In this document: piece after piece, positions 6,332-30,780 of the stretch
Layout of the letters: every line of letters begins with the position of its first letter
How positions within the stretch are numbered: position 1 is the stretch's first letter
IMG/VR virus record: IMGVR_UViG_3300020385_000607
Location: 1-42,787 of that record
Reading direction: 5' to 3' (one strand)
DNA from: a virus
DNA length: 42,787 nt
The notes under the pieces: model-generated
Databases searched by the model: none
Seen by the model: the letters and a program-made list of their open reading frames with translations, nothing else
Told to the model about the DNA's origin: nothing
Made by a program: the position numbers and the translations under genes

Positions 6332-7129
6332 TTATTTTCCCTCAAACCCAGGGGGAATCCTATTGAAATATGGGTCATAGTTGAAAATTGCATTCCAATC
6401 TTGAATATCTGCTGATTGGTTCTTCCAGAACTGCCATAAACCATCATGACTACTACGATGAAATACATCAACATGAATATCATGAATATCAGATCCCAAC
6501 TCAATCTTATATAAGAAGAGAGGAATTGCAAAAGTATTTCCAGAATTGTAAATTAAGTCATCGGCAACTGCTCTAGGTTTTACACCTTGATCAAGTTTAA
6601 ACTTATCTCCACGACAATGCAAACGAACAAGTTTTTCTGCGTGATGCCTAGTAATCAAATAACAAGCAGTTGAAAAATCATTTACAAATCTACGATGCAA
6701 TTGTAAATGAACTGTTGCTGGATTGATAATTGCAAGTTGAATAACATCATAATCATATGGAACTTGAGCATAAAAATCTTTCCAGGTAAATCCCCAATGA
6801 GATATTGTAGAAATATCACAATCATCTTCCATCATCAGAAGACATGGTTCATCTTCAGTTTCATTCAACCACTTCTTCATTGCTTTTAAATGAGAAGTAA
6901 CACACCCAACTTCGCCAGAAGTCATATTATCTGGATATCTACCCTTCAGAATTTCTCCAAGGTCATTATCGCCCCTGCCATCACAAGCAGAGATGCGTTC
7001 ATAATTTCCAATACCCCAATATTTAAATTGGTCTTCCATGAACGCAGCACGTTCTGGTTTGTCATCTAGATTAATATAGTAAATTCTAGGAAGACCTTTT
7101 ATCTTGTGTTGTGCTTTATTTTTTTCCAT
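6332..7129 (-). CDS. Family 25-type glycosyltransferase (LPS glycosyltransferase)
   Basis: GT25 enzymes transfer a sugar, often galactose or glucose, onto LPS or protein acceptors. The 265-aa product has IYYINLDDKPERAAFME near the N-terminus, then GEVGCVTSHLKAMKKW, the acidic MMEDDCD motif (DxD-like metal site), and PRAVADDLIYN in the C-terminal half, all in the usual family order. I place the start at ATG 7129 (MEKNKAQHKIKG), overlapping the previous gene by 14 bp; an earlier start would run further into it. It is the last gene of unit C. It is clearly paralogous to the gene at 40209-41030. Confidence 0.88.
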   Translation of the reverse strand: MEKNKAQHKIKGLPRIYYINLDDKPERAAFMEDQFKYWGIGNYERISACDGRGDNDLGEILKGRYPDNMTSGEVGCVTSHLKAMKKWLNETEDEPCLLMMEDDCDISTISHWGFTWKDFYAQVPYDYDVIQLAIINPATVHLQLHRRFVNDFSTACYLITRHHAEKLVRLHCRGDKFKLDQGVKPRAVADDLIYNSGNTFAIPLFLYKIELGSDIHDIHVDVFHRSSHDGLWQFWKNQSADIQDWNAIFNYDPYFNRIPPGFEGK

Positions 7130-8006
7130 TAATCCATTCCTCAAGATTTGTCTTTGCAGACCAACCAAATGCTTGTTTTATCTTGTCACAGTTGGCAAGA
7201 GTAACACGACACTCACCAGGACGTGAAGGAATATTAGTAGTGTTTTTAGAAATCATAGCAGCAATTTCATTTACAGAATAATTAACTCCACTACCAACAT
7301 TATATACCTCACCATAATATTCATCATCTTGGTTACTAATTGCTGCCATTATATTGGCAGTAACAACATCATTAACATGAACAAAATCTCTACGCTGCTC
7401 CCCATCACCCACAATAGTTAATGGTTGACCAGCATTCTCTTGACGCATGAAGATACCCATCACAGGAGCATACTGACCTGTTGTAGGTTGTCCTTCACCA
7501 TAAACATTAAAGTATCTAAAGATTATGGTTTTCAATCCATAGAGGTCATTATAAACCTTACACCAGTTCTCACCATTTACTTTAGAGATTGAATATGGAT
7601 TCAGACAATCATTTGTCTGTGTTTCCACGTTAGGACTTTCATTCAATCCGTATGCAGCAGATGTAGATGAATAAACAAAACGCTTTACACCTGCTTCTCG
7701 TGCTGCTTGAAGAAGGGTGCAAGTTCCATGGTCATTTGTGCTAGAAGCACTGATAGGATCTTCCACACAAGTTCCAATCTTAGATTCTGCGGCAAGGTGA
7801 AATACAGTATCTACATTATGCATACATTCTTTCATGGCAGCATAGTCTCTGATGTCTGCTATCCTATTAGAGAATTGTCCATCCTTACGTAGATCAGAAA
7901 CTAAAAAGTTTTTATCAATACTAAGAACTTCATAATTATGTTCTCTCAATCTTTTTACTAGGTGAGATCCAATGAATCCTTTACCACCCGTAACTAAACA
8001 TTTCAT
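7116..8006 (-). CDS. NAD-dependent nucleotide-sugar epimerase/dehydratase (296 aa)
   Basis: An extended short-chain dehydrogenase. GGKGFIGSH near the N-terminus binds NAD; the S-x-x-Y-x-x-x-K catalytic set is seen in VYSSTSAAYG and NPYSISK; RRDFVHVNDVV is the usual substrate-side motif. The overall order resembles UDP-glucose/UDP-GlcNAc 4-epimerases (GalE/WbpP type), though the exact substrate is uncertain. If it makes UDP-Gal or UDP-GalNAc it would feed the GT6 in the same operon. The ATG at 8006 overlaps the preceding fucosyltransferase stop (ATGA). Confidence 0.85.
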   Translation of the reverse strand: MKCLVTGGKGFIGSHLVKRLREHNYEVLSIDKNFLVSDLRKDGQFSNRIADIRDYAAMKECMHNVDTVFHLAAESKIGTCVEDPISASSTNDHGTCTLLQAAREAGVKRFVYSSTSAAYGLNESPNVETQTNDCLNPYSISKVNGENWCKVYNDLYGLKTIIFRYFNVYGEGQPTTGQYAPVMGIFMRQENAGQPLTIVGDGEQRRDFVHVNDVVTANIMAAISNQDDEYYGEVYNVGSGVNYSVNEIAAMISKNTTNIPSRPGECRVTLANCDKIKQAFGWSAKTNLEEWINGKK

Positions 8007-8848
8007 AAAACAATCCAATCAGAGCAATACAAATCTTTCGTATCTTTATCAGCGTATGCAGGTCCAAACCACATCTTAGGTGCAATTACCTTTTTATTTG
8101 GATTGGATTGTAACCAGGCACCCCACCAACTCATACTACTATTAGCAATAATAGCATGAGAACACAAGGACATCAAGCACAAATCAATGTATGGAGTATA
8201 TGATCCATCATCATATTTCTCTTCTGGTTCTGATATAAAGAATCGATCTCCAGCAAAAAACTCTTGCTCTTGAACCCATTCAGGAGAATCTGAGAAAACA
8301 ATTACTGGTTGTTCATCATCAAACTGAGCAAGTGCCTTTTCATAGTATTCCAGTGGTTGAACTGGATGTTGATCAGAGCAATTAACATATGCCCACTTAA
8401 ATCCACGAGGATCAACCAAGTTAGGATCACCACGCCGAACATGAAGCATAATTGGTTCATCTTCTAATTGATTGATCATGTTTTGACATGGTGCCAAAAA
8501 CTCATCCTTGAATCGGAATATCTTTCGAATATCTTTCTCTACGTGTTTGAAGTATTTTTCAGACTGAAAAAATCCATACAGTGATGAATCATCAGGACAC
8601 CCGTCCATAAGATCTTTATCAAAATGAAAGAACCTTTCACCAATTAATTTATCAGTTTCAATAAAATTTTCATTTACACCGTCAATATTAAATGCTTCAA
8701 AGAGACTATAGTTTTCAATACCTTTATGTGATTTGGGAGGAATACACCAGTTATACCCATTCTTTGTCGCAATACCATAAAGAGCCGCAAACTCAAACAT
8801 CTGGTTTCCAAGACGACCCAGACTTCCTAAGTGATTAAATCCAATCAT
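8003..8848 (-). CDS. GT11 family fucosyltransferase (281 aa)
   Basis: GT11 enzymes (FutC/WbsJ type) move fucose from GDP-fucose, commonly in alpha-1,2 linkage to galactose. The markers are GRLGNQMFEFAALYG at about residues 11-25, HVRRGD at 136-141, which binds GDP, and the C-terminal ANSSMSWWGAWL motif. The length is normal. It overlaps its neighbours by 4 bp on both sides. It is one of two GT11 genes in this unit, and gmd-fcl in the same island would supply the donor. Relative to the copy at 12510 it has a longer N-terminal half and a diverged acceptor region, so the two probably use different acceptors. Confidence 0.92.
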   Translation of the reverse strand: MIGFNHLGSLGRLGNQMFEFAALYGIATKNGYNWCIPPKSHKGIENYSLFEAFNIDGVNENFIETDKLIGERFFHFDKDLMDGCPDDSSLYGFFQSEKYFKHVEKDIRKIFRFKDEFLAPCQNMINQLEDEPIMLHVRRGDPNLVDPRGFKWAYVNCSDQHPVQPLEYYEKALAQFDDEQPVIVFSDSPEWVQEQEFFAGDRFFISEPEEKYDDGSYTPYIDLCLMSLCSHAIIANSSMSWWGAWLQSNPNKKVIAPKMWFGPAYADKDTKDLYCSDWIVL

Positions 8849-9702
8849 TCTTTAATATACTCCTTTTTCATTTCGTCGAATACTTTATCAATTCCTTTAT
8901 CTATGCTTGTTTTAGGCAACCACCATCCAGTGATAAATGTGTTTGCTTCATTTCTCTTATCCAACTGAACAGGGTCCTTTGCAAAACCAGGAGTAATCTT
9001 TACACCATACTTCTCAATCCGATTAAAACAACCTTGAATGATATGAGCAATATCCTTAATAGATGTTGAGTTAAAAGATGTGATATGAAGAGGATCTTCA
9101 GTTTTAAAATCAGTATAGTTCTCCATTACTGTTTCAAGTCCTTCACAACAATCTTCGGCATATAAGAATTGACGTTCTTCTGTGCCATCGGTCATCATTT
9201 CAAACTCACCATCTTCAAATCCTTTGCGAATGAAATCAGTAATGACATGTGCCTTATCTTGGTCTTTTTCGATACCATATACATTCCAAAATTTTACAAT
9301 CAATCCCTTCAGTGATGTAGTGTAGAGTTCACCAACACGCTTCATTACACCATACGGAGAATGACTCATATTACTCATCTGAGATGATGCAAAGATAAAT
9401 CTCTTATTATATTTCTGGAGCATACCAAAAACATTCGCCATAATACGAGTGTTATTGTTGATGAAATCAAAAGTATGCTGATACTTCTTCAGGTAATGTG
9501 AACCACCAACATCAAATGAAAGAAAGAATACAAAGTCCGCATTCTTAATAATGCTCTCAACATAAGTATTTGGTGTTACACGAAGATCATTCTGTGGACC
9601 TTCAATAATATCAACACCAATTACATCATGACCTTTTTCTACCAGATACTCTTCTAAGTATGCACCGATCTGTCCTGCAGATCCTAAAATAGCAATGTTC
9701 AT
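8845..9702 (-). CDS. NAD-dependent sugar epimerase/reductase, SDR family (285 aa)
   Basis: The N-terminus MNIAILGSAGQIGAYLEEYL has the Gly-rich Rossmann motif. FASSQMS and SPYGVMKRVGELY give a Ser/Tyr/Lys catalytic set (Y-G-V-M-K). RQFLYAEDCCEGL is the usual extended-SDR motif. The opening is reminiscent of dTDP-4-dehydrorhamnose reductases (RfbD), but the rest, with a classical YxxxK and RQFLYAED, looks more like an epimerase/dehydratase, so I do not name it rfbD. It is coupled by 4-bp overlap to the genes on both sides. Substrate unknown; it would act on a nucleotide sugar in the cytosol. Confidence 0.8.
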   Translation of the reverse strand: MNIAILGSAGQIGAYLEEYLVEKGHDVIGVDIIEGPQNDLRVTPNTYVESIIKNADFVFFLSFDVGGSHYLKKYQHTFDFINNNTRIMANVFGMLQKYNKRFIFASSQMSNMSHSPYGVMKRVGELYTTSLKGLIVKFWNVYGIEKDQDKAHVITDFIRKGFEDGEFEMMTDGTEERQFLYAEDCCEGLETVMENYTDFKTEDPLHITSFNSTSIKDIAHIIQGCFNRIEKYGVKITPGFAKDPVQLDKRNEANTFITGWWLPKTSIDKGIDKVFDEMKKEYIKE

Positions 9703-10343
9703 GAGATTCTTTCAGGTAGATAATAATTCTTATTGAAGTTAAAACACTCTTGCGTTGGGTAACTTGTGAGTGGATTTACAGTTGCTTGATAAGAACTGTT
9801 TTGATAGAACATGGGATCATCAAATGTATAAACATTGAACCAACGTTGTATCTCAGCAAATCCAATATCCTGGTAACTTTCAATCACATTACCAGCATAA
9901 AAACTTACTCTCTGGCACATTCTAACATAGTCTTCGGTGAGATACAATATGGCGTGTGCTCCAAGCATATTATATACACGATAAAAGTTATCTCTTACCT
10001 TTTCATATTCAACAAAAGGTCCAGAATGTCCGTTCATCCTTCCCCAAGATGAAACTCCAAGATAAACTGCATCTGCATCATCAGGAACTTCAATCACTGG
10101 TTCAAAGTTTTTGATTGCACAATCATCCTCAAAAAGAATAAAAGGAGGATCGATTTCTTCCAATCCTTTAAGATGTGCCAAAGAACATCCAACTAAAGTA
10201 TTATCTGGACGTGATACACCCTCAACACGAATTGAATGTTTGAATCCACAGTCTTTAATAAGTTTTTGCATACTTCGATTCTTTTCAGTATGCTCATTTA
10301 AATTCAAATAGACTGCAGGAATGTCTCTAAGATCTAAGTTCAT
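9699..10343 (-). CDS. Short family 25-like glycosyltransferase (214 aa)
   Basis: The protein contains AVYLNLNEHTEKNRSMQKL at the start, VGCSLAHLKGLEEID in the first third, and FILFEDDCAI with the acidic metal-binding patch, in the same order as GT25 LPS transferases. The C-terminal part is short and differs from the two GT25 paralogues elsewhere in the window. It overlaps the GT6 gene by 17 bp at its start. Likely cytosolic or membrane-associated; the sugar and acceptor are unknown. Confidence 0.72.
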   Translation of the reverse strand: MNLDLRDIPAVYLNLNEHTEKNRSMQKLIKDCGFKHSIRVEGVSRPDNTLVGCSLAHLKGLEEIDPPFILFEDDCAIKNFEPVIEVPDDADAVYLGVSSWGRMNGHSGPFVEYEKVRDNFYRVYNMLGAHAILYLTEDYVRMCQRVSFYAGNVIESYQDIGFAEIQRWFNVYTFDDPMFYQNSSYQATVNPLTSYPTQECFNFNKNYYLPERIS

Positions 10344-11022
10344 TATGATTTTTTTTCAAAGCAATGATTTTGGGTTCATATGGATAATCAGTTCCATAGA
10401 ATTCTTCAGCATAGCAATAGGTTGGTGTCAACTCTAGTGCTGGAGGATTATTAATAAGATAACGGTTCATATGACTTTCATCGTGCCACAGTGCAACAAT
10501 ACCTTTCTCAAGATCTTTATTCACATTGTTGGCAATAACTTCTGCCATCTCCATAAAACTTTCAGTTTTACCACCGTTAAAACCACCAGCAAAATAAGTA
10601 TTTCCTTGTCCCATAGGAACATATGCTAGTGAATCGGGATTACGATCATAAGACATATCCATCACAGTATTAAATGATTGATATGGATGCTTAGTAGCAA
10701 CAACTCCATTCGCAAGAACTTCTTCGCCAACTGGATTATCAATCCGCATATCAGCATCAAAGTAGAAGCAATAATCGTGCTCCAGGATAAAATCCTTTTC
10801 CTTCACAAAGTAGTTATAACGCTTTAGAGTGGGCATCGGCCAAGGTTCATGATCAATATAATGAATCCGAACATTATCACCTGCCTCTTCAATTTCATGA
10901 TCAGTGAACAGAAGACAATTGATCTCTGTGCCAGGTAGAAACTTTTCAGAAATATCAGTATACAGTTTTTCTACAAACTGAAGATACTTATTAGTTGCAA
11001 TAGTTAGAATACAAATTTTCAC
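10327..11022 (-). CDS. GT6 family glycosyltransferase, ABO blood-group type (231 aa)
   Basis: GT6 enzymes transfer Gal or GalNAc in alpha-1,3 linkage; the vertebrate ABO enzymes use Fuc-alpha-1,2-Gal as acceptor. The family marks are present in order: FYFDADMRI with DAD at 89-91, KHPYQSF at 111-117, YDRNPDSLAYVP, YFAGGFNGG at 143-151, GIVALWHDESHMNRYL with the catalytic-region Glu at about 182, and KNHNELR near the end. Many bacterial GT6 have NXN in place of DXD; this one keeps DXD like the vertebrate enzymes and, to my memory, the earlier cyanophage P-SSM2 example. It is a soluble catalytic core with no membrane anchor. It lies between a GT25-like gene and an FkbM methyltransferase, in the same unit as two GT11 genes. 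Confidence 0.93.
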   Translation of the reverse strand: MKICILTIATNKYLQFVEKLYTDISEKFLPGTEINCLLFTDHEIEEAGDNVRIHYIDHEPWPMPTLKRYNYFVKEKDFILEHDYCFYFDADMRIDNPVGEEVLANGVVATKHPYQSFNTVMDMSYDRNPDSLAYVPMGQGNTYFAGGFNGGKTESFMEMAEVIANNVNKDLEKGIVALWHDESHMNRYLINNPPALELTPTYCYAEEFYGTDYPYEPKIIALKKNHNELRS

Positions 11023-11639
11023 AGTAGATTTTTCCTTACGTAAAGAGCATCACCCCAGATTTGACCTTCCCAACTGGTCATTACACGTTCCATATTATAT
11101 TGAGCAAGGAACTCATCCAGTTCCTCAACATAAGCATTGTTTTCGTAAACCTCATCACGGTTTACCTCACAGTAAACGTAGTCAACTTTTTCAAGAGTTT
11201 TAGTGGCACCCTTCAAAACTTCAAGTTCATAACCTTGAACATCCATATTAATGAAGTTATATTCGTGACAATCATAATTATCCAAACAACTAACTTCAAC
11301 ATCCTCTGTAGTAGGGAACTTTACATAAGGATGATGTGTAAGATGAACTTTTGGTTTCAGAATACTACTACTCTGTTTTTCATTATCACTAACATACATC
11401 GTAGTCTTTCCAGGTTCAGAACCAAGAGCAACCTGATGCCCCTCAATATTGGCATTCAAATCCTTTACCTTATCTGCCAAGATATTGAAGTTCTCTTCTA
11501 ATGGTTCAAACATAACCATGTCTTGAATACCACAATCAATATAATCAGGTATCTCTTCACCATAATGGGCACCAATCTGAATGATGCCCTTAATCTTCAT
11601 ATTATATTTTTTCTTTAGAAGTTTAAAACTAAGCAGCAT
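11019..11639 (-). CDS. FkbM-type SAM-dependent methyltransferase (206 aa)
   Basis: KGIIQIGAHYGEE is the SAM-binding motif I and FINMDVQGYELEVLKG the hallmark FkbM segment; MFEPLEENF lies between them. FkbM enzymes O-methylate sugars, often as a cap on LPS or polysaccharide. The ATG at 11639 has GGAG 7 bp upstream and overlaps the previous stop; a second possible start at 11600 (MKIKGII) would fit the typical family N-terminus. The gene overlaps GT6 by 4 bp. It likely methylates a glycan built by the neighbouring transferases. Confidence 0.87.
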   Translation of the reverse strand: MLLSFKLLKKKYNMKIKGIIQIGAHYGEEIPDYIDCGIQDMVMFEPLEENFNILADKVKDLNANIEGHQVALGSEPGKTTMYVSDNEKQSSSILKPKVHLTHHPYVKFPTTEDVEVSCLDNYDCHEYNFINMDVQGYELEVLKGATKTLEKVDYVYCEVNRDEVYENNAYVEELDEFLAQYNMERVMTSWEGQIWGDALYVRKNLL

Positions 11640-12513
11640 CGAAAATCTCCATTAATGTTTTTACTGATTGTTTATAGGAAAGGTTTTCCTTCACATATTT
11701 ACGTGGATTGTATCTATCCAGTTTACTATAAAACTGATCAAATGTCTCCTCTAAGATTACATCATCAAACAAAAGATCGGATTCGATAAACTTCTCTCCA
11801 CAATCAGGAGACCAGAAAGGAATTGATGTTGCAGGAACTCTCCACTGTTCACCCTGATCATTCCATTCCGTAATGTCCCAAGCAAAAATAGGAGTTCCAC
11901 AAGCCATGATTTCTTGAACTGCAATACCTTGACTTTCAGTTCCATTGATAAGAAAGCAGCATTTAGATTTAGATGCTAGTTCATTCACTTGTTCTGGTGT
12001 ATAAGATCCATACTGCATAATGTTGTATGTCATTTCTCTGGAATCCAAGAGTGATACGACATTATCAAGTTCTTTAGATGATCTTCTTTTAAAGTAAACA
12101 AGACAATCAAACTCTTCAGTTCTCTTCACCTCAGGTAGTTCGATACCAACAGACCATACAGAAATCTTTTCTTCTGGATATCCAAACTTATTAACATACA
12201 AATCCTTTACCCATTGAGATGGTGCAATAATTGATTTGTAATAATTTGGATTTTCTTTTAGTTCATTAACATGACCATCAAACATCCAGATCTGAGGACC
12301 GATTACACAATTTTCCAATGTAAGATTAGAATGCTTAACATGCCCTGTCCAATCATATTGAACTAGAAAGTTATGTTTATACTCTTCAACATTTACCGCA
12401 TATGGAATATTTTCTTGTTCTAAACTTGCACGTAAATTTTCAACAACTTTTCTAGGACCATTCATCCCAGAAGAATGACCCCAATAAGATGGTTCATAGA
12501 ATAGATTGATCAT
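11629..12513 (-). CDS. GT4-like (GT-B fold) glycosyltransferase (294 aa)
   Basis: IAPSQWVKDLY and ISVWSVGIELPE mark the end of the N-domain, and ESQGIAVQEIMACGTPIFAWD is the E-x7-E type donor-binding motif of family 4 retaining enzymes. The product is shorter than a usual GT4 (350-400 aa), with a trimmed N-terminal domain, and begins MINLFYEPSYWGHSSGMNGP. Donor and acceptor are unknown. It overlaps the GT11 gene upstream by 4 bp and the FkbM gene downstream by 11 bp. Confidence 0.82.
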   Translation of the reverse strand: MINLFYEPSYWGHSSGMNGPRKVVENLRASLEQENIPYAVNVEEYKHNFLVQYDWTGHVKHSNLTLENCVIGPQIWMFDGHVNELKENPNYYKSIIAPSQWVKDLYVNKFGYPEEKISVWSVGIELPEVKRTEEFDCLVYFKRRSSKELDNVVSLLDSREMTYNIMQYGSYTPEQVNELASKSKCCFLINGTESQGIAVQEIMACGTPIFAWDITEWNDQGEQWRVPATSIPFWSPDCGEKFIESDLLFDDVILEETFDQFYSKLDRYNPRKYVKENLSYKQSVKTLMEIFDAA

Positions 12514-13280
12514 ACCTTAATCCACTCCTCTAACATATATTCAGATCCAGATGCTTCACGATTCCATCTCTCTGGTCCAATAGTAAACTCACTATTACCC
12601 AAGAATGCTCCCCACCAAGAATATGAGGAGTTAGCAATAATATGATTTTTACACTTAGTCATTAAGTAAAGATGACCACTGTCTTTAACATCATTACATT
12701 CAGGTCCAACAAAAGTAATCTCTTTATCGGTTTCAATATTTCCCCTACACCATTCAACATCTTCTGAGAATACAAAGTAGTGAGGATTGGAATACTTAGA
12801 CTCCATTAGTTTTACAGCACGATCATAATATGCTTTATCAAGAACACCATGATGTGCGAGTGCTGTTGGGTTAGTGATGTAATCACCTCTCCTAACGTGA
12901 ATAGCAACTGGAGTTTCTACATCACTAATTTGTTCTTCAACTTTCTTTGTTGCTTCTGAAAATTCAACAGAGAAAGTAAACTGTTTCTTAACATCTTCAA
13001 TAACATTTTCAAACTCTTTTAGATTTTGAAACCACCCCTGAAGCATTGTTGCACCCTCTGGTGCTTCTTCAGAGATTTTATATTTAATGTTTAGAATATC
13101 AAGATCATATCCACGACCTGTCAATCCATTCACAATAACCTTCCTTTCTTGATTACCATAAAATGATGTATCAAGACGAAGTTCTGTGAACTGTGGATAT
13201 TCTTTCAGTGCAGAAACTCCTGCCGCATACTGAAACATTTGGTTTCCCAAACCACCTTGGAGATAGACGTATAAAATCAT
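12510..13280 (-). CDS. GT11 alpha-1,2-fucosyltransferase-type enzyme (256 aa)
   Basis: This is the more canonical of the two GT11 proteins: QGGLGNQMFQYAAG at residues 8-21, HVRRGDY at 128-134, HYFVFSEDVEWC, and HIIANSSYSWWGAFL near the C-terminus. The family uses GDP-fucose and commonly makes Fuc-alpha-1,2-Gal. The order and length match bacterial FutC-like proteins. It is coupled to the GT4-like gene downstream by a 4-bp overlap. If it fucosylates a terminal Gal, its product would be the acceptor class used by ABO-type GT6 enzymes. Confidence 0.94.
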   Translation of the reverse strand: MILYVYLQGGLGNQMFQYAAGVSALKEYPQFTELRLDTSFYGNQERKVIVNGLTGRGYDLDILNIKYKISEEAPEGATMLQGWFQNLKEFENVIEDVKKQFTFSVEFSEATKKVEEQISDVETPVAIHVRRGDYITNPTALAHHGVLDKAYYDRAVKLMESKYSNPHYFVFSEDVEWCRGNIETDKEITFVGPECNDVKDSGHLYLMTKCKNHIIANSSYSWWGAFLGNSEFTIGPERWNREASGSEYMLEEWIKV

Positions 13281-13282
13281 TA

Positions 13283-14146
13283 TTAGTTTCTTTCTAAAAG
13301 GATATGACTACCCTTACCATTATAAGCAAGATAATCTACACCAGCATACAATTCTGGTTCATCAATCTGGTAGTTAACCCAATCACCAGCATATGGTCGT
13401 TCAACATCAATAATGCCTGCAAGAGCATCAATTGAGGCACCCACATCAAGAAATACAGCATCAGTATACTTCTTAAGTCTATGTATTAGACCAGACTTAA
13501 CGTGACCCATACCCATCAAGAAAATTTTAGATGTAGTGTTTTCTAGTTGTTCACCAACCATTTTTTCGGTTGCATCAATATCATCACATGCAAATCTCTG
13601 AGGAAGAGATATGTAATCCTCAAACTGCTCAAGTCCAAGATAATCTTGATACTGAGGTGCTTCAATAACATTGCGAATGATATTCATTTTCATATCTGCA
13701 CCAATCAAACCAATCTTTCCAGCAAAGGTTTGAAGCAACCACTTGTTAGTGACTAACCCATATCCAAACTCTGCTGGATAATCAATACTCACCCCAGGAA
13801 GAACCTCACTAAACTTTTGACGATTATCAGGGTAAATCTCGCAAGTGTAATAGTCGCACTCTCTAGCACCGTCCTTGAACGCCTGGTGATCAATCTGACT
13901 GTAGGGTTTACTTAGTGCTCTACGACCAGGTGTTGCACTACCAACTGATTCACCTTTAAGAAAGAAATAATCACCATCGCCAAACTTATAAAAAGTTTTA
14001 GATTCATTCTTATCTACAAGATCAACCAGAAGGTCCTTAAATTCACTCAACTTCTCTTGAAAGTTTGGATAGGTTTTAACACTACCAAAACATGGATTGG
14101 CATCTAAGTTTTTAGTGCCATTAATTTTATAAAGATCCAAATACAT
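13283..14146 (-). CDS. Putative GT-D fold glycosyltransferase-like protein (287 aa)
   Basis: No sure family assignment. The segment FYKFGDGDYFFL (about residues 51-62) resembles the F-x-x-x-G-D-G-E motif of GT-D/DUF1792-type sugar transferases, and IFLMGMGHVKSGLIHRL followed by AVFLDVGASIDAL near residue 215-240 matches the nucleotide-binding second half of such proteins. It sits 1 bp downstream of the DegT gene and 2 bp upstream of a GT11 gene, so it belongs to the glycan operon. An alternative is an unrelated phage protein. No signal peptide or membrane helix. Confidence 0.6.
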   Translation of the reverse strand: MYLDLYKINGTKNLDANPCFGSVKTYPNFQEKLSEFKDLLVDLVDKNESKTFYKFGDGDYFFLKGESVGSATPGRRALSKPYSQIDHQAFKDGARECDYYTCEIYPDNRQKFSEVLPGVSIDYPAEFGYGLVTNKWLLQTFAGKIGLIGADMKMNIIRNVIEAPQYQDYLGLEQFEDYISLPQRFACDDIDATEKMVGEQLENTTSKIFLMGMGHVKSGLIHRLKKYTDAVFLDVGASIDALAGIIDVERPYAGDWVNYQIDEPELYAGVDYLAYNGKGSHILLERN

Positions 14147-14147
14147 A

Positions 14148-15311
14148 TCAATCCTCAGTTACAGCAACACCGTGATAGATGGCATTCTTACCATCATAAG
14201 ATGAAATTCTTCTCTCACCATAAAACTCCTTTACCCAATAAATCACATAATCAATATCTTCTTGTGCCATTCCAGGATGACAAGGAAGACTTACTAACTT
14301 TTTCCATTCACGATCGGCAACAGTATAACTACGATCCTGTTTAACAATCTTATGTGTATGTAGTGGTTTGTAGTGAACACTGGTATGAATTTTCTTATCC
14401 GCAAGATAATTAATCATATCATTTCGTTCAGCAGTAGGAACACGAGCACCATAGTGCTGAACCGTTTCTGACCAAACAGGTATTCTAATTAAACCATTCA
14501 ATTCTTCATTATAGCACTTTTGAATGTGCCTACGCCACTCAAGATGTTTGGGTAGTTTCTTCATTTGCTCCAGTGCAATTGCTGCCTGGAGATCAATCAT
14601 ATAGCACTTATATCCAAGGACATCAATATCATAATCCCAAGAATATCCAGGTTTATTACCCAACTTATTAGTGCGTGAGAAAGTGCTAGTGATACCCAAC
14701 CAAGTCAAAGGAACAAGTTTTTCATAAAGTTCTTTATCATTGGTAGTAATCATACCACCATCACCACAAGGCATAGTCTTCACTGCCTGGAAAGACCATA
14801 CTGCAGCATCACCTTTAGATCCTGCCCCAGATGTATAGCAACTATGAGCACAATCTTCTAAAATAAAACCATCATAAAACTCACGAATCTCATCAATCGG
14901 TGCAGGAACTCCTGCCATATTGACAGCAATAACTGCTTTAGTATTTGGTTTTAGATTTCTACGAACATCTTCAGGATCAATGCATAGAGTGTCATCCAAA
15001 ACATCTACAATGTTTGATGTGCAATTATTCCAAAGTGGAACAGCAGCAGTTGTCATAAAAGACATTGTAGGATTGATAATATCACAATCCTTGATACCTA
15101 GTGCCTTGAATACAAGATCTTGCCCTGCGGTATTACTAGTTACTGCAACAGCATACTTGGCACCGACCATTTCGGCAAACTTCTTTTCAAACTCAGCAAC
15201 CTTTGGACCTTTACCCCACCATCCAGTTTCAATACATTCTCTCAAAGAATCAAGTTCCTCATCACCACCAACTGGTCGAAGAACTGGTAATACTGTATCT
15301 CGAATTTCCAT
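14148..15311 (-). CDS. DegT/DnrJ/EryC1/StrS family PLP sugar aminotransferase (387 aa)
   Basis: These enzymes transaminate keto groups of nucleotide-linked deoxysugars. The PLP-binding Lys is in WSFQAVKTMPCGDGGM (about residue 183), the Asp in FILEDCAHS, and the family C-terminus SVHYKPLH is present. The length is normal. Two keto-sugars are made in the window: GDP-4-keto-6-deoxymannose by Gmd (giving GDP-perosamine in RfbE-type enzymes) and dTDP-4-keto-6-deoxyglucose by RfbB. Either could be the substrate; I cannot choose. The C-terminal 25 residues (RRISSYDGKNAIYHGVAV) extend past the usual end. Confidence 0.9.
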   Translation of the reverse strand: MEIRDTVLPVLRPVGGDEELDSLRECIETGWWGKGPKVAEFEKKFAEMVGAKYAVAVTSNTAGQDLVFKALGIKDCDIINPTMSFMTTAAVPLWNNCTSNIVDVLDDTLCIDPEDVRRNLKPNTKAVIAVNMAGVPAPIDEIREFYDGFILEDCAHSCYTSGAGSKGDAAVWSFQAVKTMPCGDGGMITTNDKELYEKLVPLTWLGITSTFSRTNKLGNKPGYSWDYDIDVLGYKCYMIDLQAAIALEQMKKLPKHLEWRRHIQKCYNEELNGLIRIPVWSETVQHYGARVPTAERNDMINYLADKKIHTSVHYKPLHTHKIVKQDRSYTVADREWKKLVSLPCHPGMAQEDIDYVIYWVKEFYGERRISSYDGKNAIYHGVAVTED

Positions 15312-15312
15312 A

Positions 15313-16014
15313 TCAACAAATGTGGTAGTTAGAAACGTCTAGTGTTTGTCCATTGATCTCCCAATCATTACGAATAAGACCCAGGAAGTCTAACCACTCA
15401 TAATCAATATTATTTGTGGTTATGTAGTTGTAGAGATTTTGTTCAGACCCAATATGATTAGAAAGATTATTATTCAGTTCACTCATACTGTGCTCTGCAT
15501 ATTCTACCATGCATTTTGTCTTCATAGAGAAGAACATATCATTATATAAAGATCCTTTGTATGATTCAGTCAATCTACCATCCAAAAATAAAAAATCTGG
15601 ATTTGATATCAATGCACTTTTCTCTAAACGCTCTGTTTTTTCAAATACATACGGGCATGTAAAAACTTTTCTTGCCGAGATGTATGATACGTTTTCATAT
15701 TGATCCAAATCAGTTTGATCTAAAACTGTTTTGAGCATGAGAAGTTCTCCCATACCTTTATTTCTAGTTCCAATATTACCTTCACTACCAGTTGCACACA
15801 TCTCAGTGTCAGAAAGTAGTTCCTTTAATTCAGTATTTTGTAGTTGGTCTGGATCATCAATAGTATTTTCACATACTAAAAGATCGAAGGAGTCTGGTAG
15901 AACTCTCTCCAATTGTTTAAGGCAAATCAAGTATTCATCTTCTCTGGCATCGCAAACTTCTTTAGAAAGTTGAACGGGACGCAAAGAGCAGAATGCTAGT
16001 GCTAAATTTTTCAT
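15313..16014 (-). CDS. Unknown protein heading glycan unit C (233 aa)
   Basis: I do not recognise the family. The protein has GSEGNIGTRNKGMGELLML at about residues 75-94, VSYISARKVFTCPYVF, and NDMFFSMKTKCMVEYAEH followed by GSEQNLYNYI. This ordering (an acidic/Asn patch, then a SEQ motif) is reminiscent of some GT-A-like transferases, but no clear DxD is visible. It is the first gene after the unit C promoter and stops 1 bp before the DegT start, so it is expected to act in the same pathway. Confidence 0.7.
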   Translation of the reverse strand: MKNLALAFCSLRPVQLSKEVCDAREDEYLICLKQLERVLPDSFDLLVCENTIDDPDQLQNTELKELLSDTEMCATGSEGNIGTRNKGMGELLMLKTVLDQTDLDQYENVSYISARKVFTCPYVFEKTERLEKSALISNPDFLFLDGRLTESYKGSLYNDMFFSMKTKCMVEYAEHSMSELNNNLSNHIGSEQNLYNYITTNNIDYEWLDFLGLIRNDWEINGQTLDVSNYHIC

Positions 16015-16037
16015 CTAAGACTTCACACTTATCAAGT

Positions 16038-16066
16038 ATTATACTCGATACAGAGTCTTTATGCAA
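16038..16066 (-). promoter_or_regulatory. TTGCAT-17-TATAAT promoter for glycan unit C
   Basis: TTGCAT (16061-16066) and perfect TATAAT (16038-16043) with 17-bp spacing. The -35 box plus the next two bases, TTGCATAA, contains the TAA stop of rfbC. Confidence 0.8.
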
Positions 16067-16598
16067 GGGTGCATTCCTTCAATAATTTACCCTCAACGTC
16101 CTTTTCAGATAGAATTGGATTATCAATCTGCCAATCAATATTCAGTTCAGGATCATTCCAAAGCAATGTCCGTTCATTCTCTGGACTATATTCGTTAGTA
16201 ACTTTATAGAAAAATTGTGTTCCCTCACTTAAAGATAAAAATCCATGAGCAAATCCTGGAGGAACCCATAAAGATAAATTATTTCTACTAGACAGAATAA
16301 TTGAAAAATGTTTTCCAAAAGTAGGAGATCGTTCTCTAATATCAACGATAACATCCCTTACAGATCCCTTGAGAACCCTAACGAGTTTACCTTGAGGTTT
16401 CTTAAGTTGATAGTGAAGACCCCTTAGAACACCCTTTTTTGAAACAGATAAATTATCCTGAGTAAAATCAGCATAGAAATTTGTTGCTTCTCTAAATTCT
16501 TTTAGATTAAATGGAACATTAAATACTCCACGATCATCTTTATATTTTGGTGTCTTGAATACATAAACACCATGCATGTCAATCTCTGTTGCTTTCAT
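16059..16598 (-). CDS. rfbC: dTDP-4-dehydrorhamnose 3,5-epimerase
   Basis: RfbC converts dTDP-4-keto-6-deoxyglucose to dTDP-4-keto-L-rhamnose. The cupin-fold protein shows VFKTPKYKDDRGVFNV, QDNLSVSKKGVLRGLHYQ with the catalytic His, GSVRDVIVDIRERSPTFGK, and VPPGFAHGFLSL, all canonical. I use the ATG at 16598 (MKATEIDMHG), which overlaps rfbB by 20 bp; a TTG 21 bp upstream is less likely. The length of 179 aa is normal. It is the last gene of unit B, and its stop codon is built into the next promoter. No rfbD follows. Confidence 0.95.
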   Translation of the reverse strand: MKATEIDMHGVYVFKTPKYKDDRGVFNVPFNLKEFREATNFYADFTQDNLSVSKKGVLRGLHYQLKKPQGKLVRVLKGSVRDVIVDIRERSPTFGKHFSIILSSRNNLSLWVPPGFAHGFLSLSEGTQFFYKVTNEYSPENERTLLWNDPELNIDWQIDNPILSEKDVEGKLLKECTLA

Positions 16599-17511
16599 AC
16601 CACTCAATAGTTTTTTCAAGTCCTTCTTTTATATTAAATCTTGGTTTCCAGTTCAATTCAGTAGAGATCTTACTGATATTAGTTGAATATCTTCTATCAT
16701 GACCTGGACGATCTTTCACATATTCTATCATAGATTCTTCTTTGTCAAGCAGATTCACAATTTGTTTGACAAGATCAATATTTCTAACTTCACATTCACC
16801 ACCAATATTATATTTTTCACCAATCTTCCCATTCTTCCAAACTTCAGTCAGTGCTTCACAATGATCTTGGACATACAACCAATCTCTAATCTGTAGTCCG
16901 TCCCCATATACAGGAACTTTTTTGTCACTCAACAGATTTAAAATTGTTTGTGGAATAAGTTTTTCTTTATATTGCCGTGGACCGTAATTATTAGAACAGT
17001 TGGTAATCACTGTTGGTAAACCATATGTGTTATGAAAGGCACTGACAAAATGGTCACTTGCTGCTTTTGATGCAGAGTATGGATTCTTTGGATCATAAGG
17101 ACTTTCCTCAGTAAAAGATCCCTCAGGGATAGAACCAAAAACCTCATCGGTAGAGATATGGTGAAACTTCTCAATATCGATCAAACGACTTGCATTAAGA
17201 AGATTGATTGTTCCAACAATATTACTTTCAACAAAAGGTTTGCAATCTTGAATTGAATTATCCACATGACTTTCTGCAGCAAAATGAAATACTACCCGTG
17301 GTTTAAATCTTGTGAAAATATATTTAACCTGATCTTCATTGAAAAGATCACAGTTCTCAAAATGAAATTGTGGAGTGTCTGGAATATAATTTAGATTTGA
17401 GGCATATCCCAACTTATCAATAACAACTACATGTTCTTCGACAGTTTCTTGTAAGTGCTTAACAAAGTTACCTCCAATAAAACCTGCACCGCCAGTTACT
17501 AATATAGTCAT
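16579..17511 (-). CDS. rfbB: dTDP-glucose 4,6-dehydratase
   Basis: An NAD-dependent extended SDR that makes dTDP-4-keto-6-deoxyglucose. GGAGFIGGNF binds NAD; HISTDEVFGSI holds the Thr-Asp-Glu catalytic triad; NPYSASKAASDHFV supplies the Tyr/Lys; NCSNNYGPRQ and RDWLYVQDHCEAL are family-specific. The length of 310 aa is slightly short for the family (usually 330-355). The start overlaps the rfbA stop at one base. Confidence 0.95.
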   Translation of the reverse strand: MTILVTGGAGFIGGNFVKHLQETVEEHVVVIDKLGYASNLNYIPDTPQFHFENCDLFNEDQVKYIFTRFKPRVVFHFAAESHVDNSIQDCKPFVESNIVGTINLLNASRLIDIEKFHHISTDEVFGSIPEGSFTEESPYDPKNPYSASKAASDHFVSAFHNTYGLPTVITNCSNNYGPRQYKEKLIPQTILNLLSDKKVPVYGDGLQIRDWLYVQDHCEALTEVWKNGKIGEKYNIGGECEVRNIDLVKQIVNLLDKEESMIEYVKDRPGHDRRYSTNISKISTELNWKPRFNIKEGLEKTIEWYESNRD

Positions 17512-18383
17512 CAGTGGTCCTCAATAATACTTTTTAAATAATCACCATACCCACTCTTTGGATATTGTTCAGATAGTTTCAAAAGTTGCTTACCATCAAT
17601 CCATTCGTTTTTGTATGCAACATCTTCAGGACATGATATCTTGTATGATTGAATTTTTTCAAAGTTAGACACAAAATTTGATGCCAATAATAAAGAATCA
17701 AATGTTCCAGCATCAATCCACGTCATTGTTCTTGTTAGATTTTTTACATTGAGTTCTCCATCCTCAAGATACTTCTTACAAAGATCAATAATTTCCAACT
17801 CACCTCTCTTTGATGGTTTGAGTTTCTTTGAATATTCAACACATCGATTATCAAAAAAGTAAATACCAATCAGTGCTCTATTTGATTTTGGATTCTCAGG
17901 TTTCTCTTCAATAGAAATTACAGGACCCTTATCAAAACTTTCAAACTCAATAACACCAAATCTCTCAGGATCTCTAACTGGATAAGAAAGAATAGTTGCT
18001 CCTGATTGATCCTGACATTGCTTGAGGATATTATCTAAATCATTACCAAAGATAATATTATCCCCAAGAATCATACAAACATCATCATCACCAATAAAGT
18101 CTTCAGCAAGAATGAACGCCTCAGGCAATCCATTTGGATTATCCTGAACTTTATATGATATTGAAATACCTAAGTGGGATCCATCAGAAAAAAGTTTTCT
18201 AAATTGATCTTCTTGTCCTGGATTAGTAATTATTAAAATTTCTCTAATACCTGCCAACATCAGAGTGCTTAGTGGATAGTAAATCAGAGGTTTATCATAC
18301 ACGTTCATCAACTGCTTTGACACAACTAAGGAAGATGGATACAGTCGTGTTCCATTTCCCCCAGCGAGTATGATACCTTTCAT
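17511..18383 (-). CDS. rfbA: Glucose-1-phosphate thymidylyltransferase
   Basis: RfbA makes dTDP-glucose from glucose-1-phosphate and dTTP, the first step of dTDP-deoxysugar synthesis. GIILAGGNGTRLYP is the nucleotide-binding signature; SKQLMNVYDKPLIYYPLS, ILGDNIIFG and TWIDAGTFDSLL follow in the family order. 290 aa is the standard length. It overlaps the upstream gene by 4 bp and forms a tight A-B-C set with rfbB and rfbC. The dTTP draw would compete with phage DNA synthesis, so it is probably run when dTTP is plentiful (inference). Confidence 0.96.
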   Translation of the reverse strand: MKGIILAGGNGTRLYPSSLVVSKQLMNVYDKPLIYYPLSTLMLAGIREILIITNPGQEDQFRKLFSDGSHLGISISYKVQDNPNGLPEAFILAEDFIGDDDVCMILGDNIIFGNDLDNILKQCQDQSGATILSYPVRDPERFGVIEFESFDKGPVISIEEKPENPKSNRALIGIYFFDNRCVEYSKKLKPSKRGELEIIDLCKKYLEDGELNVKNLTRTMTWIDAGTFDSLLLASNFVSNFEKIQSYKISCPEDVAYKNEWIDGKQLLKLSEQYPKSGYGDYLKSIIEDH

Positions 18384-19336
18384 TCTTCCCCGTAATCTTC
18401 ATCATCTAAATCAAAACAAGACCGATATACTTCCAAGAAGTTTTTAGTTTCTTCTGGAAGATAACTCATATAATTTTTAAGATCTCTTATGAGTTTGTAA
18501 GTATTGCGATATCCAATAACTTCCTTTTCAAGATTTGTAATTAGATCTTGAACATTTCTATCTTGATAAACGGATGCTTTATTATAAACAACACTATTTG
18601 GAAAATAATGTTGAAGAATATAAGATCCCCAAATATCATCCATCCTACCAACATGAGGTAGAACAGCATAGTATGGAATTACTTCCCTTGCCAAAAATGT
18701 ATTTTGACTATTAAAGGGAGAAATCTTATTTGAACAATACGGGTTCTCTACATTATATTTTACAATAGGTTTCATGGTGAGTCTAGCCATAGCATCAATA
18801 TCAGGATCACCATCCCAAAGATCTGCCTGAACTAATACTTTACGTTTTATTTTCCCTTTGTATTCAACTCTATTACGACGTTGAAGTAATTCAATGGGAT
18901 ATCCTCTGTGCCAAATTTCAGGTGTATTAGTTACTGAAAGAGGATCAAATACATTATCTACAGGTTCGTAAAAATCGCAGTCAACTGTTTGCCCAATTAA
19001 AAGATTTTGCCCCCAATCGTCATAAGGAATATTGTCATCATCAACAGTTGCAATTACATCTGCACCCTGATCATATGCATAAAGAAGACCAATATTTCTA
19101 CGTTGAATAGAATTCCAACCAATAGCATCCGAAAGTTCTGGATACATATCTGGTTGTTCTTTAGAACATAGATAAACACAATTCAGTTCTTCTTGGTAAT
19201 AATATCTGGGAGTTTTTTTATCACCAACTACAACAAAAGTCCATCCATCTCTTTTTGCAATTTCAGCAAATTTATGCGTTGCAATAGTTGGTTCATTAAT
19301 TGTAGTAGTTACAATATACTTATTTTTTAATTCCAT
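18380..19336 (-). CDS. STELLO/DUF288-like putative glycosyltransferase (318 aa)
   Basis: The order of motifs resembles the STELLO (DUF288) group best known from plants: IVTTTINEPTIATHKFAEI at the start, TFVVVGDKKTPRYYY, IGWNSIQRRNIGLLYAYDQG, and ADVIATVDDDNIP, an acidic DDDN in the metal-site position. In plants the proteins act in Golgi glycan or cellulose-synthase assembly; the phage role is unknown. There is no membrane anchor. The family call rests on recalled motif patterns, so a general GT-A transferase is the fallback. It overlaps both neighbours and ends 4 bp into rfbA. Confidence 0.68.
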   Translation of the reverse strand: MELKNKYIVTTTINEPTIATHKFAEIAKRDGWTFVVVGDKKTPRYYYQEELNCVYLCSKEQPDMYPELSDAIGWNSIQRRNIGLLYAYDQGADVIATVDDDNIPYDDWGQNLLIGQTVDCDFYEPVDNVFDPLSVTNTPEIWHRGYPIELLQRRNRVEYKGKIKRKVLVQADLWDGDPDIDAMARLTMKPIVKYNVENPYCSNKISPFNSQNTFLAREVIPYYAVLPHVGRMDDIWGSYILQHYFPNSVVYNKASVYQDRNVQDLITNLEKEVIGYRNTYKLIRDLKNYMSYLPEETKNFLEVYRSCFDLDDEDYGEE

Positions 19337-20256
19337 TCTATTTCTCCATTAACAAGGATTTCGGTATTGTCGTTGATTCTCTCTTTATTATACTTGACAA
19401 ATCCCCAATCTGGTTTGTTGTCATACTTCACTTTAGCATACTTATTATCTCTAGGAATAGGATGCCCATGGTAAATGTGATAATAAGGGGAAACTATAAA
19501 CTTAAGTTTCTTACCCTTATGCTTTAGATTCCAAAGAATCTCTGCATCCATACTAGATTGATTGAAACTAGTTCGATGCCCATCATCTTTTTCATTATAT
19601 GCTGTGGCAACATTAAAGAATACATCTCTTGAGAACATGGATGCATCTCCAGACCACAATCCAAGCACAGGATCTTCACCAAGAAGATTATGATATTCCA
19701 AATTCTTATACAGATCCAAAACTTGACCAGGATCACCCCACCCATCAAGAGGACCCGTTAACTCACCACCATGATTAGCAACCTTGGGGTTAGATACTGG
19801 ATAATCTCCTAAAGAAATATCTCCACGATACCTAGCACGATAGAATACATTTTCTTTTTCATCACTATCAAGTTCACCTTTAATTTCTTCAATCAACTCT
19901 TCTGTCATCATAATATCAGAATTAGTGATAAAGATTAGTTCTCCAGTAGAAATTCTACAACCAGCATTCTTTGCAAAATACTCATAATAAGTTGAAGGTG
20001 TCAAATCCTCAGCAACTGATACTGAAGGATCAACAATCAAGTTCTTCACCTTGGGGTGTTGAAGAACTTCTTCCATCAAAGAATTGATATAGAGATACTG
20101 ACCATTAATTGGATTGAAGTCAACCACAATCATTTCATATTCAAGACCAGACTTATCAAGGAGTTCTAAGTTATAGGAAACTGCTTGCTTTAATCTTTCG
20201 ATAAAGTGTTCCCCATAATTATCATCTCTGCCACCCAATACAACACTTAAATCCAT
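19327..20256 (-). CDS. GT-A type glycosyltransferase (309 aa)
   Basis: The N-terminus MDLSVVLGGRDDNYGEHFIE and the segments YEMIVVDFNPI, FAKNAGCRISTGELIFITNSDIMM (NSD as the DxD equivalent) and LWSGDASMFSRDVF match the GT2/galactosyltransferase-type GT-A fold. A His-rich YYHIYHGHPIP near the C-terminus is typical of the metal- and acceptor-binding end. The ATG at 20256 overlaps the upstream stop (TGATG) with AGGAG 8 bp before it. Sugar and acceptor unknown. Confidence 0.8.
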   Translation of the reverse strand: MDLSVVLGGRDDNYGEHFIERLKQAVSYNLELLDKSGLEYEMIVVDFNPINGQYLYINSLMEEVLQHPKVKNLIVDPSVSVAEDLTPSTYYEYFAKNAGCRISTGELIFITNSDIMMTEELIEEIKGELDSDEKENVFYRARYRGDISLGDYPVSNPKVANHGGELTGPLDGWGDPGQVLDLYKNLEYHNLLGEDPVLGLWSGDASMFSRDVFFNVATAYNEKDDGHRTSFNQSSMDAEILWNLKHKGKKLKFIVSPYYHIYHGHPIPRDNKYAKVKYDNKPDWGFVKYNKERINDNTEILVNGEIEWN

Positions 20257-21311
20257 CAACCATTCTCCTGTTTTTTAATTTGCTCTTGAATCCAATTATA
20301 AGTTTGGTGAATACCTTCTTCTAGAGTTTGTGAATAGTCCCATCCAAGTTTCTCTCGGATTAAATCATTATTGGAATTACGACCACGAACTCCAAGAGGT
20401 CCATCAATATGAATCTTGGAGACTTCCTTACCAGCAACCTTAGCAGCAGTATCTACCAGTTGATTAATAGTAACCATCTCTTCAGAACCAATATTCACAG
20501 GACCCATAAAGTCACTATCCATTAGTCTTCTAGTTGCTTCAACGCATTCGTCAACGAACAAGAAGGAACGAGTTTGTAAGCCATCTCCCCACACCTCGAT
20601 AGATCCACCTTCCTTCGGGAGGTAAGCGACTTTACGGCAGATTGCAGCTGGTGCCTTCTCTCTGCCACCATCCCAGGTGCCCTCTGGTCCAAAGATATTA
20701 TGATACCTAGCAACCCGAACAGGGATGCCATGGTTACGATTGTAAGCAAAGTAGAGACGCTCACTGAAGAGTTTCTCCCATCCATACTCGGAGTCTGGTG
20801 CTGCTGGGTATGCTGATTCTTCACGACAGTCAGGATTATCGGGGTCTAATTGATTATGCTCTGGATACATACAAGCAGAACTAGAATAAAAAATCTTAGT
20901 CTTGTTTACACCATCAAGTTCATTACGCATTCTTTGGCATTCAAGAACATTCAAATTAATTGTGGCAGAGTTGTGCATGATGTCTGCATCATTCTCACCT
21001 GTAAAGATGAAACCTGCTCCACCCATATCGGCAGCAAACTGATAGATCTCATCAAATGAAACAATATGACGTTCAGGAACAAGATTATAAAAGTTGCCAT
21101 TATATCCTTTAAATTGAAGGCACGATGCAGTAAACTTTAGATCTTTTAGATCCCCAGTAATAAATTCGTTTGCTTCAGATTGAGAAAAATCGGGACGTTT
21201 AAGATCAACACCTCGCACCCAGTATCCTTCGGAACGAAGACGTTTCACCATATGACTACCAATAAATCCACCAGCACCGAGAACAAGTGCTGTCTTCTTA
21301 TATTCACTCAT
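20256..21311 (-). CDS. GDP-mannose 3,5-epimerase type enzyme (351 aa)
   Basis: The sequence closely follows plant and bacterial GDP-D-mannose 3',5'-epimerase (GME): GAGGFIGSHMVKRL for NAD, MGGAGFIFTGENDADIMHNS, FYSSSACMYPEHNQ, YGWEKLFSERLYFAYNR with catalytic Tyr/Lys, ARYHNIFGPEGTWDGGREK, and RSFLFVDECVEATRRLM. GME makes GDP-L-galactose and GDP-L-gulose from GDP-mannose, the same precursor used by gmd. The length is close to the family norm of about 370 aa. It is the first gene of unit B, behind its own TTGCATAA promoter. I leave the symbol blank because no standard bacterial name exists. Confidence 0.93.
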   Translation of the reverse strand: MSEYKKTALVLGAGGFIGSHMVKRLRSEGYWVRGVDLKRPDFSQSEANEFITGDLKDLKFTASCLQFKGYNGNFYNLVPERHIVSFDEIYQFAADMGGAGFIFTGENDADIMHNSATINLNVLECQRMRNELDGVNKTKIFYSSSACMYPEHNQLDPDNPDCREESAYPAAPDSEYGWEKLFSERLYFAYNRNHGIPVRVARYHNIFGPEGTWDGGREKAPAAICRKVAYLPKEGGSIEVWGDGLQTRSFLFVDECVEATRRLMDSDFMGPVNIGSEEMVTINQLVDTAAKVAGKEVSKIHIDGPLGVRGRNSNNDLIREKLGWDYSQTLEEGIHQTYNWIQEQIKKQENG

Positions 21312-21337: not shown

Positions 21338-21366
21338 ATTATACGAAAAAAAGGTGAATTATGCAA
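21338..21366 (-). promoter_or_regulatory. TTGCAT-17-TATAAT promoter for glycan unit B
   Basis: TTGCAT (21361-21366) and perfect TATAAT (21338-21343), 17-bp spacer containing a run of seven T. TTGCATAA includes the TAA stop of fcl. Confidence 0.82.
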
Positions 21367-22294
21367 CTTCTTGAATAAAACATTCATATGCATGTTCGAT
21401 ACCTTGACGTAATTCAATCTTTGGTTCCCATCCAAGTTTTTTTATTTTTCTCACATCCATAACCTTTCGCATCGTTCCATTTGGTTTAGAAGTATCCCAC
21501 TCAATATTACCAACGAAACCAACAACATCTGCAATAGTTTCAGCAAGTTCTTTGATAGTTACATCTTTACCAGGACCAATATTCAGATGTTCTCTCCCAT
21601 CATATTTTTCCATAATGAGATGACATGCTTCAGCAAGATCATCAACATGTAAAAACTCCCGCATAGGAGTTCCATCTCCCCAGCAAGTTACAGAAAGTTT
21701 ATTCTCTGCTGCTGCCTCATGAAATCTACGAACGAATCCAGGAAAAACATGAGAGTTAACTGGATGGTAGTTATCACCTGGTCCATACAAATTACAAGGC
21801 ATCACACTGACTGCATTAAATCCATACTGATCTCGATATGATTGACACATCTTAATACCAGAGATTTTTGCAATAGCATAAGCATCATTGGTTGGTTCCA
21901 ATGGACCAGTTAAGAGTTGCTCTTCCGTAATTGGTAAAGAACACACCTTTGGGTAGATACAAGATGATCCCAGAAACAAAAGTTTCTTTACCTCAAACTT
22001 ATGAGCATAATGAATAATATTCGTCTGAATCATCAAATTCTCATAAATCATTTCTGCCTTATGGTCTCTATTACCAATAATTCCACCGACCTTGGCGGCA
22101 GCAACAAAAACATATTCAGGTTTCACATGATCAAAGAAAAACTCAGTTTCTTTTTGACAAGTGAAGTCAACCATATTTCTGGTTGCTTCTGTAATATTTG
22201 TATATCCTTTACTCCTAAGATTTCTTACGATGGCACTACCAACCATCCCCCTAGAACCTGCTACAACAATTCTCGAATCAAGTTTCATTTTCAC
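21359..22294 (-). CDS. fcl: GDP-L-fucose synthase
   Basis: Fcl (WcaG) epimerises and reduces GDP-4-keto-6-deoxymannose to GDP-L-fucose with [21 protein letters not shown] is the nucleotide-binding motif; [10 protein letters not shown] and [15 protein letters not shown] hold the Ser/Tyr/Lys set; [22 protein letters not shown] and [13 protein letters not shown] are family-specific. The length of 311 aa is normal. GTG at 22294 has GAGGA 5 bp upstream; an ATG two codons later is the other possible start. It overlaps gmd by 17 bp, so the two are translated together. Confidence 0.96.
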
Positions 22295-28113: not shown

Positions 28114-28132
28114 CTATCAAAGACTTTTCAGT

Positions 28133-28141: not shown

Positions 28142-28144
28142 TCC

Positions 28145-28309: not shown

Positions 28310-28314
28310 GTTAA

Positions 28315-30759: not shown

Positions 30760-30780
30760 TTTATACAATCCCCATTTTGG

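Follow-up and report, generated by a model that had tools for sequence, protein, structure and literature searches.

What does a cyanophage build with a long run of sugar-nucleotide and glycosyltransferase (GT) genes that includes enzyme families of blood-group antigens, and on which surface is the product placed? The question is raised by IMGVR_UViG_3300020385_000607, an IMG/VR virus fragment of 42,787 nucleotides that was analysed over its full length (hereafter the window), with genes called by open reading frame (ORF) listing and Pfam scans. A first-pass annotation had singled out positions 7116–13280 as a phage operon encoding two GT11 proteins, a GT6 protein and a GalE-like epimerase. 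These genes are real and intact, with E-values far beyond chance, and they do form part of one unit, although the range covers only the central part of a longer cassette of 20 genes on the same strand, from gmd (23279) to a GT25 gene (6332). Intergenic gaps in this cassette are 48 bp or less, with overlaps in most cases; its genes, all on the minus strand, include gmd/fcl, a DXD-type GT6 gene and two genes each for GT11 proteins and epimerases.

We consider the operon to be, probably, a lipopolysaccharide (LPS)-type sugar-nucleotide and glycosyltransferase island with which a P-SSM2-like, T4-like cyanophage remodels the surface of its host, a reading that we infer from gene families, folds, selection and promoter motifs. 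Islands of this kind are already known in related phages, LPS islands having been recognised since P-SSM2; new here are the purifying selection on the island, the sigma70-type box at its head as against the late motif of the tail-fibre genes, and the single-gene exchange of GT6 between islands.

A conserved LPS-type island under purifying selection

By sequence comparison the nearest relatives of the window are P-SSM2-type T4-like cyanophages; within IMG/VR, two sister contigs (L091 and L252) match it at 95–96% over about 12–13 kb. The P-SSM2 island (PSSM2_257-271; also present in P-SSM5) has gmd and fcl followed by GT11-GT1-FkbM-GT6-ORF-epimerase-GT25, the order found in the window, and in both phages the conserved cassette lies next to hli and ferredoxin genes. 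P-SSM2 GT6 is 65.7% identical to the window GT6 and likewise has a DXD motif (DVD) and an HPYQ loop. The islands differ in that the window has, after the GT25-like ORF and before the last epimerase gene, a second GT11 gene (GT11b) and an extra epimerase gene; and upstream of the first GT11 gene (GT11a) the window has RmlABC, DegT and others, whereas P-SSM2 has other GT genes.

The LPS genes of P-SSM2 were proposed to change the host surface against other phages (PMC2984593); whether cyanophage LPS islands function or are filler was not decided by a comparison published in 2010 (PMC3037559). The island genes of the window are under purifying selection: for all 16 genes tested against relatives, the median ratio of nonsynonymous to synonymous substitution rates (dN/dS) was 0.08–0.27, with few stop codons, and individual values for GT6 went down to 0.03. 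Such selection on codons argues against the filler option, and the island is well preserved and probably functional.

Promoter motifs and timing of expression

A TATAAT box at 23300–23305 (minus strand), 26 bp before gmd, is the probable sigma70-type promoter of the operon. Mechanical counts of promoters and terminators over the island showed no excess over shuffles and only a position-specific test across loci was therefore used. Of 65 distinct phage sequences upstream of gmd, 26 had TATAAT between −45 and −12 (2.9 expected); at the same positions of a GDP-mannose 3,5-epimerase (GME)-like gene it was present in 34 of 52 (2.3 expected). Inside the islands, it occurred at chance before GT6, GT11b, fcl and GT25, and most internal genes were near chance. 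The published late promoter of cyanophages is NATAAATA, and sigma70-like motifs lie ahead of early genes in some of these phages (PMC2984593). The T4-type late motif ATAAATA was found 19–28 bp before the ORF start in five of the five tail-fibre genes of the window and in none of the 20 island genes; it was also present at genes neighbouring the tail-fibre genes, and across loci it was nearly absent upstream of island genes. The sigma70-type box, as opposed to the late motif, suggests that the operon is expressed early or midway in infection, and such timing would point to a target on the host cell.

At the head of gmd (23300–23336, minus strand) a hairpin with a T-run (23312–23336) lies directly ahead of the −10 box, an arrangement that recurs in other phages (loci L311, L312, L031 and L058) and has the sequence features of a composite terminator-promoter. 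The five long tail-fibre-like genes, each preceded by ATAAATA, occupy 25681–38477; the one at 36039–38477 encodes a C-terminal Peptidase_S74 chaperone domain.

Proposed action and sugar-nucleotide supply

In the scheme that we favour, a host-type sigma70 promoter before gmd would start a single long transcript in the early or middle phase of infection; Gmd and Fcl would convert host GDP-mannose to GDP-fucose, and RmlA/B/C, the aminotransferase and the epimerases would, judging by family, provide other activated sugars. Working in the cytosol, the transferases would assemble or modify a glycan of the host surface, GT11a adding fucose and GT6 adding, with retention, an alpha-linked N-acetylgalactosamine (GalNAc) or galactose (Gal), GalNAc being the likelier from the AGG motif of the enzyme. 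The changed surface would most likely stop adsorption of competing phages, or grazers, until lysis.

Several points weigh against this scheme. A poor −35 hexamer precedes gmd, and P-SSM2 gmd has no TATAAT within 100 bp upstream. Neither an initiating enzyme nor a flippase or polymerase was recognised among the operon genes, and the assembly steps would therefore have to be borrowed from the host; virion proteins, moreover, would be an equally feasible target of transferases in the cytosol. No strong membrane segment was found in the 20 operon proteins (largest 19-residue hydropathy mean 1.66), a result that counts in favour of the scheme but sets the operon apart from a complete O-antigen cluster of the E. 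coli O86 type, which has its own flippase and polymerase.

The genes for GDP-fucose supply lie in the same island as GT6 and GT11, as had been noted from the outset. For the first step, gmd (22278–23279, GDP-mannose 4,6-dehydratase) matches TIGR01472 at 555 bits, over the cut-off; for the second, fcl (21359–22294, GDP-L-fucose synthase) has NF047922 as its best model at 454 bits, below the cut-off of 500. The motifs of both are intact and are those that we take to be catalytic. The GalE/WbpP-like epimerase (7116–8018) has GalE (4zrm) as its best match in the PDB, followed by WbgU and WbpP, and scores below the GalE equivalog cut-off. Its gate position, read from the sequence, is Thr, which presumably permits N-acetylated substrates (UDP-GalNAc), and the enzyme may supply UDP-GalNAc. 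RmlA, RmlB, RmlC and a DegT aminotransferase are encoded at 14148–18383, where no RmlD was recognised, and their product is probably an amino-deoxysugar rather than rhamnose.

The GT6 protein and its relatives

The product of the GT6 gene (10327–11022) matches PF03414 at 114 bits (cut-off 25) over residues 4–231, the full catalytic domain. Asp89, Asp91 and Trp179-His-Asp-Glu-Ser183 are as first described and are invariant in 28 viral homologues. The AlphaFold model (pLDDT 93.8) gave a template modelling (TM) score of 0.92 to both BoGT6a (4ayj, fucosyl-lactose complex) and human GTA, and the protein as modelled has the GT-A fold and the catalytic Glu in a WHDE motif that mark CAZy family GT6. 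BoGT6a, a metal-independent A-antigen synthase of Bacteroides ovatus, is 33–34% identical to the window GT6 and shares WHDES and the AGG donor motif, but has NXN and an HPGF loop where the window GT6 has DXD and HPYQ. Human GTA has DXD, WHDES and a C-terminal KNHxxxR pattern in common with the window GT6, but is 26–27% identical, with an LGG donor motif, an HPGF loop and another host and context.

D89-A-D91 aligns with N95-A-N97 of BoGT6a and with DVD of GTA, and by motif the window GT6 is a putative member of the metal-dependent branch with its DXD metal site. In an alignment of 137 GT6 sequences, 131 were DXD-type, including human GTA, and the six with NXN were BoGT6a and five Gastranaerophilales loci. 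The DXD motif, noted at first for this protein, is thus general among the phage GT6 proteins surveyed; every aligned one has it, and we rejected it as a trait setting the window phage apart.

The GT6 tree contained two phage clades, one with the QGC donor motif (Shimodaira–Hasegawa-like approximate likelihood ratio test, 99) and one with the window and P-SSM2 proteins, which carry AGG or AAA; GTA and BoGT6a fell on the same side of the tree as the latter, on long branches and with uncertain placement. The QGC-type proteins (S-CAM9, S-8S56, Bellamy, SynMITS9220M01, DSL-LC02/03) resemble the window GT6 in being from cyanophages, in having DXD and in having GT11 in the island; they differ in their separate clade, their donor motif, their HPCH loop and the usual position of GT11 immediately before GT6. 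Both phage types (AGG and QGC/QGS) were found within one island in L040 (9989–11427) and L046 (3901–6761), and the two GT6 ORFs of L040 overlap by 4 bp.

As of 2014, GT6 was known from two cyanophages only (PMC3961637). In the phage collections, GT6 was found in 71 records and GT11 in about 103; in IMG/VR, more than 100 loci had GT6. The phage GT6 proteins, in two clades and with DXD throughout, form a resource for blood-group-type enzymes. We know of no enzyme assay of any phage GT6 protein. A recent host origin of GT6 was rejected, a pattern-based scan of bacterial genomes with limited sampling having returned no close relative and a best match of 34%, from gut Gastranaerophilales; GT6 was present in 11 of 386 sampled genomes of the phylum of this group. 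In these non-photosynthetic gut cyanobacteria (L411–L415) GT6 is of NXN type with an EWLN or EWVN loop, and no GT11 was found within 10 kb.

The acceptor loop, at GTA residues 233–236, is HPGF in GTA and BoGT6a, whose acceptor is fucosylated galactose, this being the form expected of ABO or fucosylgalactoside-type GT6 enzymes; it is HPYQ in the window GT6. It is QAWW in bovine alpha-1,3-galactosyltransferase, which acts on unfucosylated N-acetyllactosamine (for GTA and the bovine enzyme, the sequences used agreed with the PDB at every letter). With HPYQ instead of HPGF, an H-type acceptor cannot be assumed for the window GT6; phage GT6 proteins of a sister subclade do have the HPGF form, and acceptors therefore probably differ among phages. 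On the donor side, BoGT6a, which transfers GalNAc, has AGG too, and a Gly residue at position 268 of GTA gives space for the N-acetyl group (PMC4692239), which suggests that GalNAc is a likelier donor than Gal.

GT11 proteins and a possible blood-group-like pathway

Both GT11 proteins contain HVRRGD (the HxRRxD motif) and match PF01531 (cut-off 23.9), GT11a (12510–13280) at 107 bits and GT11b (8003–8848) at 79 bits; GT11b, of a generic cyanophage type, also matches phrog_2644 at 356 bits. Sequence searches of the PDB with both proteins returned nothing useful. A fold search with the AlphaFold model of GT11a (pLDDT 91.6) succeeded, with NodZ, FUT8, AtFUT1 and POFUT1 as best matches (TM about 0.5), and GT11a as modelled has a GT-B fucosyltransferase fold. 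The family given in the first-pass annotation holds for both proteins, but the alpha-1,2 linkage to Gal given with it does not follow, as GT11 also includes an alpha-1,3-fucosyltransferase, HhFT2 (PMC4202792).

The same annotation had proposed a specific product: GT11 would make Fuc-alpha-1,2-Gal (H-like) and GT6 would add an A- or B-like cap. In its A-like form, with alpha-1,3-GalNAc added to a host glycan (compare E. coli O86 and Helicobacter mustelae), we regard this pathway as unlikely, an A-antigen-like trisaccharide being a possible product. The enzyme families, GDP-fucose supply and co-location on which it was built are all present, the epimerase at 7116–8018 fits it as a potential source of UDP-GalNAc, and in fold and AGG motif GT6 equals BoGT6a, an enzyme that forms the A antigen with 2'-fucosyl-lactose as its acceptor (PMC3961637). 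The HPYQ loop counts against it, as does the arrangement of the window clade, in which GT1 and FkbM separate GT11a from GT6; other GT1, GT2 and GT25 enzymes could also act between the two steps.

Among 107 representative GT6 loci, each with four or more ORFs upstream, GT11 was found within 10 ORFs of GT6 in 96, upstream as a rule, and was missing from that range in 11. In isolate phages it lay no more than about 2.5 kb upstream of GT6 in nine of nine and directly before it in seven. GT11 adjoined GT6 in 25 of the 107 loci, where placement at random would give 13.6, a count that is uncorrected for shared ancestry, and these adjacent pairs came chiefly from the QGC clade. Co-location across phages is thus real, as anticipated, and an absence of co-occurrence, named at first as a refuting condition, does not apply; the co-location does not, however, discriminate between the readings. 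In islands anchored on GT25, GT11 was equally frequent with GT6 (44/54) and without it (20/26; Fisher p = 0.77), so that co-occurrence adds little, and we rejected it as proof of an H-antigen pathway.

In a thinned GT11 tree, with sampling anchored on GT6, GT11, GT25 and Fcl that shows clustering and not rates, the label 'GT6 within 5 kb' changed 17 times compared with 56 for shuffled labels. GT11a fell in a set of five rows, all with GT6 near, which favours the pathway; GT11b fell in a set of 40, of which 32 were without GT6. The idea that both are partners of GT6 was rejected on this ground, GT11a being the likelier partner.

Possible virion decoration, and gene exchange

Deposition of the glycan on tail fibres or capsid, instead of on the host surface, is also improbable in our judgement. 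Cytosolic transferases with no recognised membrane parts and an island that adjoins the tail-fibre genes are consistent with it, but the sigma70-type box stands at the island head, the T4-type late motif is found only at tail-fibre and neighbouring genes, and the nucleotide-sugar and GT genes form an LPS-type set. Masking, superinfection exclusion and particle decoration had all been suggested earlier; with an early-type promoter, decoration of virions alone becomes less likely. That the genes are non-functional filler required for headful packaging, a possibility on which PMC3037559 did not decide and which is in keeping with the strong variation of island content between phages reported there, is very improbable, being already contradicted by dN/dS and by the near absence of stop codons in the homologues compared.

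Codon selection speaks for islands that work, and the kinds of promoter speak for an action on the host cell ahead of the late stage; a specific question thereby becomes testable, namely whether infection alters a host surface sugar and excludes rivals.

GT6 alone (10317–11022) has 86–90% DNA identity to L013/L014, most flanking blocks having 64–78%, and in L011/L331 the synonymous divergence (dS) of GT6 is about 0.06 compared with 0.9–1.2 for FkbM, GT1 and GT11b. These sequence differences indicate that GT6 is exchanged as a single gene between islands. It is a doubtful further step, and one that we put forward very tentatively, that lytic marine cyanophages might, early in infection, build on their host an A-antigen-like, fucosylated cap with terminal alpha-GalNAc through a GT6 that depends on metal, and might alter this cap by exchanging individual transferase genes, as a serotype switch against competing phages.

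Other genes of the cassette

Downstream of fcl lies the GME-like gene, a putative sugar-nucleotide epimerase (20256–21311; PF01370) with TATAAT at −32, followed by a GT2-like glycosyltransferase with a weak match (19327–20259; PF00535, 21.7 bits, slightly below cut-off) and a protein without a Pfam match (18380–19336) that is suspected to be a glycosyltransferase from its position only. RmlA (17511–18383; TIGR01207, 401 bits), RmlB (16579–17511; TIGR01181, 430 bits) and RmlC (16059–16619; TIGR01221, 212 bits) are all over their cut-offs. They are followed by an island protein with no Pfam or PHROG match (15313–16014), the DegT/DnrJ/EryC1 sugar aminotransferase (14148–15311; PF01041, 268 bits) and a conserved island protein (13283–14146) with a WecG/TagA-like match to PF03808 below cut-off and a dN/dS of 0.05–0.10 compared with relatives.

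Between GT11a and GT6 are a GT1/GT4-type (GT-B) glycosyltransferase (11629–12513; PF00534, 26.5 bits, slightly above cut-off) and the FkbM methyltransferase (11019–11639; PF05050). GT6 is followed by a GT25-like small protein (9699–10343; phrog_24091, function not annotated) and a sugar-nucleotide epimerase/dehydratase (8845–9702; PF01370). The last gene of the operon encodes a GT25 glycosyltransferase (6332–7132; PF01755), the counterpart of PSSM2_271 / T4-GC 266 by position and similarity. Beyond the tail-fibre genes, at 40209–42729, there is a run of a second GT25, a UDP-glucose/GDP-mannose dehydrogenase and an NAD synthase.

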